Below, one piece after another: positions 17,641 to 22,039 of a DNA stretch of 34,473 nt. The notes beneath the pieces are model-generated. The model made no database searches and was not told where the DNA came from. It worked only from the letters and a program-made list of their open reading frames with translations. Source of the DNA: a virus. The position numbers were made by a program, and so were the translations under genes. Numbering within the stretch: position 1 is the stretch's first letter; every line of letters begins with the position of its first letter. The stretch is from positions 1-34,473 of the IMG/VR virus record IMGVR_UViG_3300032240_001921. One strand, 5' to 3'.

Positions 17641-18657
17641 TTAGATCGTAAGAGCGTTATAGCCAGTGACCTTGGTCATGGCGCGAGGCTTGGTATTAAC
17701 CAACTCGGCGATCATGAGCACGGCACCGACATAACCAATCTGCCAGTTAGGCAGAGTGGACTCAAAGCCCGTAAACACAAACGAACCCTGATCGTGGATG
17801 TACAACGACAGGTAGTTGGTGTTCAGGAAGTACAGCGTACCTTCAGGGCAGTACGGGTCCGGGTAAACCGGCACGCCAGCCACCATGAGCGCGCGGAACG
17901 CGGCCTGCGGGCCATTGGCATCGCCATCAAAGCCGGAACCCGGCGTAATGACGTACTGCTCCTGACCAACGTAGTCCTGCGCCAGCAGGGTCCAGGTGCC
18001 AAAGCCGCACACGGCAAAGGTCGGGACTTCCGCGCCGTTCTTGACGGTGCCGCTGATGTACTGGAGCACGTTCTGACGGGTCGGGTTGACCGAACCAGCA
18101 GCGTACACCTTGGAGCGCCACCAGGTGTTGACCGTGGTAGAGCGGGCAATGTTGCCGTAGGTGCCTAGCGTGGTGCCGTCATCCACCGCACCCGGCAAAC
18201 CAATGAACTGCTGGGTGTTGGTGGTGTTGTTGTACAGCGCCGTCGCCATACCATCCATCATGACGTTGGTAGCGTCATTCATGCGCGCTTCGATCAGCGG
18301 AATAACCGCGTGATCCTGCTGCACAGCGCCTTCCATACCAAGGAACGGCACCGGGGCAATCATCAGCTTGAGGTTGAACTCAGCGTTGTACGCGCCCTGC
18401 TGAACTGCGGGCTGAGTGAACGAACCGGAATAGTCCGACCACTGCGCGTTGATGAACTGGCTGCCCTGCACCGGCACGGTAACGGACGAAACACCGCCCG
18501 TGGCCTGCTGGCTGTTTGCAATCAGCGCCGCCATAAGCGGGGTGCTGTTGTAAATCTGGACAACGAGTTTCGGAATGAACGCCCTACGAGTAAGGTAGGT
18601 CAGTTCTGTGTACTGCGTGCTCCCCGATGCGGGGAGAATACCACCACCAATTGGCAT
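17641..18657 (-). CDS. Major capsid protein
   Basis: A 338-residue protein whose position and content fit the coat protein. It has TELTYLTRRAFIPKLVVQIY near the N-terminus, a conserved-looking TVNTWWRSKVY region and a C-terminal HDQGSFVFTGFESTLP segment, as in HK97-fold coat proteins of podophages. TAGGAG lies 6 bases before the ATG. The scaffold-like gene precedes it and two beta-rich head proteins follow, the usual head order. The exact coat subfamily is not certain from sequence alone. Confidence 0.88.
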   Translation of the reverse strand: MPIGGGILPASGSTQYTELTYLTRRAFIPKLVVQIYNSTPLMAALIANSQQATGGVSSVTVPVQGSQFINAQWSDYSGSFTQPAVQQGAYNAEFNLKLMIAPVPFLGMEGAVQQDHAVIPLIEARMNDATNVMMDGMATALYNNTTNTQQFIGLPGAVDDGTTLGTYGNIARSTTVNTWWRSKVYAAGSVNPTRQNVLQYISGTVKNGAEVPTFAVCGFGTWTLLAQDYVGQEQYVITPGSGFDGDANGPQAAFRALMVAGVPVYPDPYCPEGTLYFLNTNYLSLYIHDQGSFVFTGFESTLPNWQIGYVGAVLMIAELVNTKPRAMTKVTGYNALTI

Positions 18658-18687: not shown

Positions 18688-19230
18688 TCAGAGACCAATG
18701 GGACGGCGCGGGTTGCGCAGTTCCGCAAGAGCCTTGAACGCCTCGTCACGCGCTGCACGCTGCGGATTCTTCCAATAACCTTGGAGAGTATCGCGCGCTT
18801 TGGTGTCCAGCACATTCATGTTGAAGGACGATGCCGTCGGTGCGGCCGCTTCCTTCATCCAGCGGTGGTAATCCGCCGCCGTTTCGTGGTTGGTAATGCC
18901 CTTCTCAAGCATCACCTTCTCCACTTCGTGAATTTCGTCTTCGGTTTGAATTTTACCGGCCTTCATCAAGTCTTGCCGACGCCGGGCAAGCTCTGCAAGA
19001 GCATCTTTTTCTTGCAATTTAGACTCAAGCATCTGAATGCGCGCTTCAGCCGCGTTTGCAACCCGGTACATAGACTCATCAATTTCCAATTCTGGAATAT
19101 TGAGGCCAGGCTGGGCCTTCTTAGTCAGCCGCAGAAAATCCTTACGGGTATCCGGGTTTTCAGCAAGCGTGCGAGCCAAACGAGCCAGTTCGTCGCGCGT
19201 TTCAAAGCTCAAATCTTCAAGAGACGCCAT
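18688..19230 (-). CDS. Probable scaffolding protein
   Basis: A 180-residue, highly charged, mostly helical protein (ETRDELARLARTLAEN, ARIQMLESKLQEKD, IHEVEKVMLEKG) ending in a basic C-terminus (RNPRRPIGL). A position just before the capsid gene, high helix content and a basic tail that can dock on coat protein are the usual marks of phage scaffolds. AAGGTGAT precedes the ATG. Scaffold families diverge widely, so identity rests on context and composition. Confidence 0.8.
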   Translation of the reverse strand: MASLEDLSFETRDELARLARTLAENPDTRKDFLRLTKKAQPGLNIPELEIDESMYRVANAAEARIQMLESKLQEKDALAELARRRQDLMKAGKIQTEDEIHEVEKVMLEKGITNHETAADYHRWMKEAAAPTASSFNMNVLDTKARDTLQGYWKNPQRAARDEAFKALAELRNPRRPIGL

Positions 19231-19426: not shown

Positions 19427-20020
19427 CTATCGGGGCATTCCCGGAAGCGGACCACCCGCACCCGGCATTGGGGGACCACCGGGACGGGGACCGCCCGGCA
19501 TAGGCATTCCACCAGGCGGCGGGCCACCCGGCATTGGCATACCGCCCGGAGGCGGACCACCAGGCATACCACCCGGCATCGGCGGTGGCGCACCCGGAGG
19601 ACCACCCGCACCAGCCATGCCAGGAATAGCCGGCATACCGGCCATCGCCTTCATTTCAGGCGTTGCGCCGCCAGCTTGAGGCAGATTCTGCAACAACTGA
19701 AGGATTTCGGCGTTCTGAAGCTCGCCAACCTTCTGCCGGCGCGGCCCCATCGCTCCTGTAAGCGAACGCAAAGCGGAAACCAGCTTCTGACCGTCAGGGG
19801 TCTCAGAACCAATTGCCGGCAAAGACTGCTCAATCAAGTCCATCGCCATGCCCACGTTGATCAACGCGGCTTCGCGGGAACCCATCTTAGGCTCAGGCGT
19901 GCTCATAGGCGCTGCCATTGGCGGCGTCGCGGCACCACTTTCACCCGGGTTAGGTGCAGTAAGTTCCGGTGCTTCTTTTGGGCGCTGGTTTTGCAGCAAC
20001 CTCATAACGCTTTCGGACAC
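19427..20020 (-). CDS. Pro/Gly/Met-rich head-cluster protein
   Basis: A 197-residue protein. The first two thirds are polar and helical (ALINVGMAMDLIEQSLPAI, GELQNAEILQLLQNLPQ). The last about 75 residues are a repetitive GGPPPGGMPMPGG tail. I chose GTG at 20020 because GGAG sits 6 bases upstream; a GTG at 20059 would add 13 residues without a clear ribosome site. It lies between the minigenes and the scaffold and may be a structural or assembly protein with a disordered tail. The tail's DNA repeats are prone to slippage. Confidence 0.65.
   Translation of the reverse strand: MSESVMRLLQNQRPKEAPELTAPNPGESGAATPPMAAPMSTPEPKMGSREAALINVGMAMDLIEQSLPAIGSETPDGQKLVSALRSLTGAMGPRRQKVGELQNAEILQLLQNLPQAGGATPEMKAMAGMPAIPGMAGAGGPPGAPPPMPGGMPGGPPPGGMPMPGGPPPGGMPMPGGPRPGGPPMPGAGGPLPGMPR
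19435..19620 (-). repeat. In-frame Pro/Gly/Met repeat tract
   Basis: The minus strand encodes imperfect repeats of GGPPPGGMPMP in the C-terminal tail of the gene at 19427-20020. The DNA copies around 19490-19560 are nearly identical, consistent with recent tandem duplication and likely length variation between strains. Confidence 0.8.
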
Positions 20021-20075
20021 TTGAAGCTCCACAATAACAATCTCGGGGGTAACACTCACCGCGCATCAAAGTCAA

Positions 20076-20104
20076 GCGGGACTATTTTTATCTTCCGGTC
20101 CCGC
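20076..20104 (-). other. Inverted repeat between minigenes and next late gene
   Basis: A perfect 7-base inverted repeat (GCGGGAC at 20076-20082, GTCCCGC at 20098-20104) with a 15-base loop lies between the second minigene and the Pro/Gly-rich gene. No U-run follows on the transcribed minus strand, so it is a doubtful terminator; it may protect or process the messenger RNA. Confidence 0.5.
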
Positions 20105-20146
20105 GCGGAAGTCGCGGATTAACGACTGCTCAAGGCAGTGCGTTAG

Positions 20147-20179
20147 TTACCGGCGAGCCTTACGACCCTTGCGACGCAT
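20147..20179 (-). CDS. Arginine-rich minigene, 10 residues (MRRKGRKARR)
   Basis: A 10-residue open frame, MRRKGRKARR, whose start is preceded by AAAGGAGG with a 6-base spacer, an ideal ribosome site. Seven of its ten residues are Arg or Lys. It lies 39 bases downstream of the stop of a second basic mini-frame that has an even stronger ribosome site. Two such signals on tiny basic frames are unlikely to be chance. The likely use is DNA or RNA binding, or a decoy or translational control; function unproven. Confidence 0.6.
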   Translation of the reverse strand: MRRKGRKARR

Positions 20180-20218
20180 GGGAAACCTCCTTTCATTGCT
20201 AGAGTTGAACACACCGCA

Positions 20219-20260
20219 TTAACGGCCACGACGGCGACCGCGCTTGACGGACTTGTACAT
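20219..20260 (-). CDS. Arginine-rich minigene, 13 residues (MYKSVKRGRRRGR)
   Basis: A 13-residue frame, MYKSVKRGRRRGR, preceded by AAAGGAGGTGAT, which fits the 16S anti-Shine-Dalgarno end almost completely, with a short spacer. It is in the same frame as the portal and as the 68-codon open frame that follows the portal's stop. It may be a real short peptide, or the start of translation inside a longer tail that needs stop-codon readthrough. Basic peptides of this kind condense DNA in some small phages, but no similarity to a named protein is claimed. Confidence 0.6.
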   Translation of the reverse strand: MYKSVKRGRRRGR

Positions 20261-20264
20261 GGTA

Positions 20265-20426
20265 TCACCTCCTTTCCGAACGCGCATTAGCGCGTGGCGC
20301 TGCCCTGTTACCAAGGCTGCGAATGGAGGATACCCTGTATTCCATGGACGGCGTAGCATTTCCTCGCGCAATATCTTTTGCTTGCGCTCTAGGTTGGTCG
20401 GCTTTGATCCTAAAATCTTGCGCCAT
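20265..20426 (-). CDS. Possible 53-residue protein overlapping the portal stop (competing frame)
   Basis: A frame starts at ATG 20426 by a TGATG overlap with the portal stop, has AGGG 8 bases upstream, and ends at TGA inside the ribosome site of the 13-residue minigene. Its product (MAQDFRIKADQPRAQ...) has no recognised feature. The portal-frame readthrough region on the same bases has a more protein-like composition, so this call is uncertain. Confidence 0.35.
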   Translation of the reverse strand: MAQDFRIKADQPRAQAKDIARGNATPSMEYRVSSIRSLGNRAAPRANARSERR

Positions 20427-22039
20427 CACTTACCCTGCTTGCCTGGTGGCTTACCCTCTGGAGGTGGGCTTGCCTTTTGCTGAGCGGTTTGCTTCTTGAG
20501 CCTATCCTTCAACAATTGCTTCATAGGCGGATCGAGCAGATCAATCAAGGACTCTTTGTCGATGGCTTGGGCTTTGAACAAATTGAACGCCAACTGCCGC
20601 ATGTCCTCCATAAAAATCGGGCTGTTGGAGTGCGCATCAACCTTTACCATAAAGTCCTTAGTGAACTGCTCGGCAATAAACTTATTGCCCTGCAAATCCG
20701 TAAAATGCGTGGGGTCGTACTGTTGCAACAGTTTAAGATACAACGTCGCCATCTTTTCCAGCGCGTCTTCAACGACCAAAGCGCGCTTTTTGATGCGCGA
20801 GGAACCCAGCCGCGCCAACTGAGACGCATGCCCCTGAGACCTAACGCCCGACTCACCCCGGCCCGACAGCACGCTAGAAATGCCCGACGCTTCGCTAAAC
20901 ATGGCGTCAATCGCGTCAATCTCGCGGAACAGGTCTGCCGGCATTTCAGGTGCCAGCCGCTCAACCTTGCCCTGCGCCATGTCATTGGACAACAAGCCGC
21001 CAGCGCGATTTAGCGCAAAGTTCTTCTCGTCCAGAATGCCCGTGAAACCCATCAAAGCCGTGGGCGGGTTTACCTGCTTGCTCAACAGGTCCAAGATTTC
21101 GGTCATACGGCGGTTGCGCATCTGCTGGAGGTAAACCAGCTTCTGCACCTCAGATTGCCCCCAGTAGTAGTCATACTGCGGATTCGGCGTGATCTGGATA
21201 AACGGCAGTTCACCCTTCATGAAAAGCTGCTCGCCGGGGCGGTCATAGATAATCACGTCTGGGTCCGCAATGGTCACGACCTGATAGTCGTTGGTCTCAT
21301 CGTCCCAAACGTAAAGCTCACGCATCTCAACCGTATCCTCGGCCACCCGCGCTTTCATGCGGTTATAGCCGTACAAGTCTAGGTTGATGGTGCCGTAAAT
21401 TGTCGGGTTGGTCTGGGACATCACAATGCGGTCCAAGCCCTCAGGCACATGGCTTACGGCATGCTGTGATGCGCTGATGCGGTCCATGATGGACTTTCGC
21501 TTGGGATGCCCGTACAGCCGCCGCGCCAAATCGGACTTGGTGATGTAGTAGGTCTGGACCATTGCCTCTTGGCGGTCAGTGTAAGGCGTATCTTCGCGCA
21601 GCACACCAACGCTGCCAGGCTCCACCATGTAGGGGTGAATGGACCCATTGCGCACAACCAACTTCACAAACGTAGACGAGTAAACCAACGCCCACGTCAT
21701 CGCCATGGCAAACACTTGGTCGCCGTTGCTGTCCTGCCATTTGTCATTCAACGCCGAGGTCAGCACCTGCACCTTCATATGCTCAGGCTGAGGCACCGAC
21801 GCGCCAAGGTTGATGCTAAACCGCGTGGTGTCGGCACTAAACAAAAACGCCGTAACCTGATCAATGTGCGGGTAAATCTTGTTGTAGTGCGCCGGGCTTT
21901 CTTCCGGCCCAGACCCAAAGAGATACCAAGAGCGCAGGCTGCTATAATCAGCCTTCCGCTCCTCGCGGGACACCAAACACTTCTCCATCAAATCCAGATA
22001 CAGTGTTTCGCGCTCAATCGGGTCTTTTGGAATGATCAC
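20426..22039 (-). CDS. Portal protein
   Basis: A 537-residue protein consistent with podophage portals. It has an N-terminal helical region (ERETLYLDLMEKCLV), central segments MIDR-type and a conserved-looking YYWGQSEVQKLVYLQQMRNRR block followed by KQVNPPTALMGF, then an acidic helix region and a basic Pro-rich tail (PPPEGKPPGKQGK). It starts at GTG 22039 in a 4-base GTGA overlap with the zinc-ribbon-like gene and lies between TerL and the scaffold/coat pair, as expected. The portal frame continues for 68 codons after its TGA stop, to the end of the 13-residue minigene. Confidence 0.88.
   Translation of the reverse strand: MIIPKDPIERETLYLDLMEKCLVSREERKADYSSLRSWYLFGSGPEESPAHYNKIYPHIDQVTAFLFSADTTRFSINLGASVPQPEHMKVQVLTSALNDKWQDSNGDQVFAMAMTWALVYSSTFVKLVVRNGSIHPYMVEPGSVGVLREDTPYTDRQEAMVQTYYITKSDLARRLYGHPKRKSIMDRISASQHAVSHVPEGLDRIVMSQTNPTIYGTINLDLYGYNRMKARVAEDTVEMRELYVWDDETNDYQVVTIADPDVIIYDRPGEQLFMKGELPFIQITPNPQYDYYWGQSEVQKLVYLQQMRNRRMTEILDLLSKQVNPPTALMGFTGILDEKNFALNRAGGLLSNDMAQGKVERLAPEMPADLFREIDAIDAMFSEASGISSVLSGRGESGVRSQGHASQLARLGSSRIKKRALVVEDALEKMATLYLKLLQQYDPTHFTDLQGNKFIAEQFTKDFMVKVDAHSNSPIFMEDMRQLAFNLFKAQAIDKESLIDLLDPPMKQLLKDRLKKQTAQQKASPPPEGKPPGKQGK

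Follow-up and report, generated by a model that had tools for sequence, protein, structure and literature searches.

Are two arginine-rich reading frames of 13 and 10 codons, each placed behind a near-ideal ribosome site next to the head genes of a tailed phage, genuine genes, and what would such small peptides do there? The locus belongs to a 34,473-nucleotide viral DNA (IMG/VR record IMGVR_UViG_3300032240_001921), the whole of which is referred to here as the window. The initial annotation had reported two arginine-rich minigenes with almost perfect Shine-Dalgarno (SD) sequences at 20147-20260, and both were indeed found there, on the minus strand, as are all the features located below. Minigene A (20219..20260, ATG..TAA) encodes the 13-residue peptide MYKSVKRGRRRGR and belongs to a tyrosine-containing class, MYK..KRGRKTRR, that is kept in relatives. 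Minigene B (20147..20179, ATG..TAA), separated from A by a spacer of about 40 bases, encodes the 10-residue MRRKGRKARR, a member of the class M(A)R(R)KGRKARR that is likewise kept. The SD of A, AAAGGAGGTGAT (20264..20275), matches the anti-SD over 12 bases, which is the longest match before any start codon in the whole window, and the 9-base match of B, AAAGGAGGT (20185..20193), is equalled in the window by only one plus-strand gene (31719). When the window was scanned for short K- and R-rich frames behind an SD, A and B were returned together with three others located inside large genes.

The gene upstream of the minigenes (20426..22039) encodes the portal protein, as judged from PHROG portal families (best E 1.6e-10) and from its annotation as portal in the related phages MW202825 and MW202753. 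It is followed at its 3' side by tightly packed minus-strand frames, namely a basic 53-aa ORF (20265..20426), A and B. The start of the 53-aa ORF overlaps the portal stop (TGATG) and its own stop falls within the ribosome site of A, whose SD covers the last codons and the stop of the ORF (GAA AGG AGG TGA) in the order GAA AGG AGG TGA TACC ATG. Homologues of this ORF were observed in many relatives and no match to a known protein family was found for it. Beyond B come in turn a hairpin, an H-type pseudoknot named PK2, the hexamer TTGACT, a Pro/Gly/Met-rich ORF (19427..20020), a scaffold-like gene for a 180-aa protein (18688..19230) and the gene of the major capsid protein (MCP; 17641..18657; PHROG 9953 major head protein, E 4e-36). 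The Pro/Gly-rich ORF, which has a counterpart at the equivalent place in a distant clade, probably starts at GTG 20020, behind the SD GGAG at 20030-20027, and not at GTG 20059 as in the longest-ORF call. The scaffold-like protein is kept before the MCP in relatives and gave no significant family match in a profile search; its putative role is assigned from position only.

Conservation was assessed with a strict rule requiring an ATG, 8-25 aa, at least 40% K+R and an SD. Among 59 dereplicated relatives that were collected through portal or MCP homology alone, 55 pass this rule, and the remaining four were each found to have a minigene on inspection: L227 falls just below the composition threshold, L232 contains MTNLPVLDARHKGRKGRK with a GGAG site and 33% K+R, and in L267 and L271 the minigene is located further upstream. 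In all 111 dereplicated loci, most of them metagenomic fragments and some of them found by the minigene pattern itself, a minigene was observed upstream in sense in 102 and antisense in none. Downstream of the MCP none of 79 loci has one by the strict rule, and Markov shuffles gave 2.7%. IMG/VR contigs with a homologous portal nearly all contain one or two such frames, sometimes three. In the same way, minigenes were found in a second contig set, collected through a capsid protein about 40% identical to that of the window, and they are present in a distant clade with an MCP about 40% and a portal 27-28% identical. The SD and the start codon are retained in relatives while the flanks change.

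The two annotated relatives MW202825 and MW202753, which share about 70% nucleotide identity with the window over matched pieces, have at the equivalent place MYKKHKRSRKTRR with MARKARKTRKGRK and MRKAYKKTRKTRR with MARAKRKGRKARK, each behind an SD. In these records (L001:4897-5157 for MW202825 and L002:4866-5164 for MW202753) the minigenes are unannotated and are overlain by the antisense 'hypothetical proteins' UOF82412, UOF81572 and UOF81573.

In parallel, the DNA pattern SD + ATG + ...GRKxRK + stop was searched in the 2.9 million viral contigs of IMG/VR, ignoring the neighbours. Among the pattern matches listed, 116 of 118 loci were found to combine homologues of the head or portal proteins of this phage with an in-frame minigene, and among these matches the sequence type appears essentially specific to this locus; further phage lineages with such genes may exist beyond the matches listed. 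Plasmids gave no match. No such minigenes were found in the stretches examined of more distant phages with a related MCP or terminase, that is Mx9, BUCT555, a Bradyrhizobium phage, Microcystis Mwe-JY13, a TM7 phage and Hydrogenobaculum phage 1. Capsid homologues were also observed in four contigs of metagenome-assembled genomes. Their bins are two uncultured beta-proteobacteria, one Balneolaceae and one Saccharibacteria bacterium, a set too inconsistent for a host to be named. The contig binned as Balneolaceae (L284, near 4637) has at the equivalent place a divergent minigene with an SD, MYGKMPKPMKKPPMRDGKRS, that is Lys/Pro-rich and not Arg-rich.

Could these frames nevertheless be due to chance, or be by-products of structured RNA from which no peptide is made? 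Structured RNA does lie beside the minigenes, which is what this explanation would call for. It is nevertheless extremely improbable, given controls near zero, a minigene in all 59 homology-found relatives, an SD and start kept amid changing flanks and the pN/pS of 0.25 described below. The earlier statement that chance would rarely place two such sites before tiny basic frames is thus borne out, and the proposed search of related phages for the region without the frames revealed that relatives keep them. The comparisons strongly support A and B as genuine protein-coding minigenes, members of a conserved set from one phage lineage. One to three such predicted genes per phage are placed before the head genes in a large uncultured freshwater phage group.

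The minigenes had been described as lying between the portal and the head genes. This is the case in the window. On the contrary, in the most distant members (L128, L142 and L168) the portal gene runs in the other direction and the minigene stays on the MCP strand, ahead of the Pro/Gly ORF and of the scaffold-like and MCP genes. As the portal can be inverted and the minigene is constantly next to the head genes, the association is with the head genes. This position, together with the strong ribosome sites, leads to the view that both peptides are probably produced late and in large amounts. Many small phage proteins target host functions, and polycations acting late in infection on ribosomes, rRNA, RNA polymerase or membranes might attack or reprogramme the host, which would fit the strong SDs and the cationic character. 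Such a role is quite unlikely, since the minigenes are tied to the head-gene locus even in divergent phages, whereas host-takeover genes are usually early and variable.

The encoded peptides are mostly of 9-22 aa with a mean net charge of about +7, and K and R make up 63% of residues over 166 minigenes. Nearly all of them end in RK, RR, KR or CR, and some have a hydrophobic N-terminus. In five members of the distant clade (L232, L243, L246, L254 and L255) the C-terminal HKGRKGRK is constant and the N-terminus is variable, often hydrophobic (LPVL, IATF, ARVF). Neither Pfam nor PHROGs gave a match for one member of 22 aa and one of 21 aa; peptides of 10-13 aa are too short for the scan. Over 241 distinct minigene sequences a pN/pS of 0.25 was obtained, an uncorrected value from pairs that are not independent, and the nonsynonymous share of differences was 44% against 74% expected. 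Exchanges among A, G and S are common, K/R exchanges are about twice as frequent as neutrally expected, and a charge is gained or lost in 30% of the residue differences. At least two consecutive triplets of the type plus-plus-small (++x) were counted in 136 of 179 peptides as compared to 28 ± 5 after shuffling. For arginine, CGT and CGC account for 87% of codons in the minigenes versus 74% in the MCP genes, and AGA and AGG for 4% versus 11%. Taken together, the pN/pS, the exchange pattern, the triplets and the arginine codon use point to selection for a well-expressed periodic polycation and not for rare-codon stalling.

Codon use also bears on the earlier suggestion that the minigenes act through translation itself, by ribosome pausing at basic peptides. 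Its rare-codon version is disfavoured by the codon percentages just given and by selection on the peptide. The last sense codon behaves differently: when it encodes arginine it is CGG in 29% and AGA in 11% of cases versus 4% and 2% internally, a bias that is unexplained, and terminal lysine is AAG in 85% versus 53% internally. Pausing that is independent of codons, or an effect of the last codon, where CGG and AGA are enriched, may take part. The minigenes resemble the bar minigenes of phage lambda in being frames of few codons with ribosome sites. The latter code for dipeptides and act through peptidyl-tRNA drop-off. A bar-type mechanism, in which rare codons matter and the peptide is irrelevant, was considered and rejected on the same codon figures and on the pN/pS, only the last codon being biased toward CGG or AGA.

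More broadly, translation of the minigenes could be their whole function, as leader ORFs or coupling devices setting head gene expression through ribosome loading, pausing at the stop or peptidyl-tRNA drop-off. The overlap of the SD of A with the stop of the 53-aa ORF would be expected from such an arrangement, as would the enrichment of CGG and AGA among terminal arginine codons and a minigene stop that abuts or overlaps the Pro/Gly start in L245 and L250 of the distant clade. It is nonetheless very unlikely that translation is all that matters: the amino-acid sequence is under purifying selection, arginine codons are the common CGT and CGC, and in the window B is parted from the next likely start by 126 bases and PK2.

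The stretch following B is structured. Directly after the B stop a hairpin can be read from the sequence, TAACGcACTGC-cttga-GCAGTCGTTA (20120..20145), and many relatives have a hairpin at this stop (e.g. AATCC..GGATT). It is followed by PK2, CTTCCG-C-GCGGGAC-CGGAAG-ATAAAAATA-GTCCCGC (20076..20111), a pseudoknot predicted from a swap test and covariation, with an A-rich third loop and usually next to TTGACA. A scoring structure with TTG close behind was found in 49 of 79 loci of the window's clade, or 45 when four doubtful ones are left out. Stem 2 contains 31 two-sided changes versus 8.4 ± 2.2 after shuffling, and for both stems pairing within a sequence beats pairing swapped between sequences (0 of 1000 swaps). 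For stem 1 the swap test was used instead of counting on a MAFFT alignment, as loop lengths vary. The hexamer TTGACT (20070..20075) beside PK2 resembles a -35 box and is TTGACA in most relatives; no good -10 accompanies it here, and a consensus scan returned no full promoter at this site in the window.

Between A and B in many relatives a hairpin was observed, followed by a second H-type pseudoknot, PK1, AGGG..GGCTGCTT..CCCT..AAGTGGCC, both located just upstream of the ribosome site of B (e.g. in L153, L102, L138 and L068). In a set of 30 sequences, pairing holds in 94% of cells and 43 two-sided changes were counted versus 9.3 ± 4.3 after shuffling; the signal collapses on sliding the partner. 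As the pseudoknot rows were chosen by the pairing found, the swap and slide tests weigh more than the pairing percentage. PK1 was not seen in the window or its own subclade. No Rfam match was obtained at gathering score for the window and nine loci, covariance models not scoring pseudoknotted pairs as such, nor at a relaxed E-value for L153 and the window. In the distant clade, sequences viewed by eye have hairpins or almost no spacer after the minigene and no obvious PK2.

Two candidate functions of this region were dropped. Programmed frameshifting at PK1 was set aside by eye, there being no conserved slippery heptamer and PK1 lying after the stop of A. Intrinsic terminators are not a constant feature, as they occur only in some relatives and none was found on the coding strand beside the minigenes of the window. 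In four loci (L031, L097, L102 and L104) the stretch between PK2 and the Pro/Gly ORF contains a palindrome, GTTTGTA..TACAAAC, flanked by a TTGACA -35 and a TACAAA -10-like box; the palindrome is a possible operator of the head operon. In L001 a different palindrome (TTAGTAATTGTTTACTAA) is found there, after a terminator-like hairpin.

The conserved RNA structures around B suggest that regulation is also involved. The main rival explanation is that the peptides would act as arginine-rich RNA-binding motifs on the adjacent pseudoknots and hairpins, thereby regulating the minigenes and the head operon. Short Arg-rich peptides are known RNA binders, two covarying pseudoknots flank B in the wider clade of the window, and the place next to the head operon is conserved. 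In length and composition the peptides are comparable to the Arg-rich motifs of lambda N and HIV Tat and Rev. However, those motifs form part of larger proteins and have a defined RNA partner, whereas any partner of the minigene peptides is hypothetical. Moreover, the distant clade has minigenes although pseudoknots are not evident there by eye, PK1 is not seen in the window itself, and the peptide sequence is loosely conserved, unlike that of most specific RNA binders. RNA binding is thus considered unlikely, and is still favoured over an attack on the host and over a role of translation only.

The best explanation, held at not quite an even chance, is that the tiny cationic peptides bind nucleic acid in trans as cofactors of head assembly or packaging. 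The charges of an (RKx)n peptide would bind nucleic acid electrostatically, and the peptides would neutralise or condense the packaged DNA, or bridge DNA and capsid. The near-universal place ahead of the Pro/Gly ORF and of the scaffold-like and MCP genes, the divergent clade included, supports this reading, and the favourable arginine codons with strong SDs argue for high expression. On the other side stand the charge-changing differences, at almost a third of the total, the RNA structures by B and the more distant related-MCP phages that lack minigenes in the stretches examined. All evidence being of sequence, translation, abundance, lateness, nucleic-acid binding and presence in heads are inferred. 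The condensation of DNA in the capsid proposed by the initial annotation is compatible with the data, since it is the charge and not the precise sequence that is kept, and the minigenes accompany the scaffold-like and MCP genes. A more specific version, in which tandem genes of 9-22 codons provide (RKx)n counterions for packaging or assembly under the control of the pseudoknot pair, possibly via peptides binding those RNAs, is possible and rather doubtful.

As possible small internal components of the head, the peptides call to mind the internal proteins and peptides of phage T4 and protamine-like virion proteins. T4 produces its internal peptides by proteolytic cleavage of head precursors, whereas here the peptides would be encoded directly as minigenes. 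The closest parallel in mode of work would be microvirus protein J/VP8, an internal virion polypeptide rich in Arg and Lys and with an important part in DNA packaging (PMC11281519). Like the minigene products, J/VP8 of phiX174 and SpV4 is very short, Arg/Lys-rich and phage-encoded. However, its gene is single and longer (VP8 ends at residue 38), whereas the minigenes, mostly coding for 9-22 aa, usually occur as one to three in tandem. Moreover, J/VP8 belongs to ssDNA T=1 phages and has a C-terminal hydrophobic or aromatic capsid anchor, while the present phages are tailed dsDNA phages, with a terminase, a portal and a tailed-phage MCP in the genome, and their minigene peptides have no such anchor. 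Virus type and C-terminal anchor having both been found to differ, membership in the J/VP8 family is not claimed and the peptides are best regarded as a putative analogue in working, with no demonstrated homology. Motor-packaging tailed phages are described as a class without Arg-rich capsid arms (PMC7096446), which implies that such peptides are not generally required. That separately encoded peptides here fill the role of these arms is speculation.

No description of such minigenes was found in the open-licence literature, and published small-gene catalogues may list some of the frames without a function. Genes this short are below the reach of gene callers and profile libraries, and the finding of a near-universal gene of 9-22 codons in a large environmental phage lineage would imply that conserved phage genes are being missed. 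In addition, two new conserved RNA pseudoknots are described beside the head operon, and with the minigenes the idea that motor-packaged phages encode polycation cofactors can be put to the test. If the counterion reading is true, they would represent a virion or assembly component of a new class and would count among the shortest conserved protein-coding genes so far known from phages.
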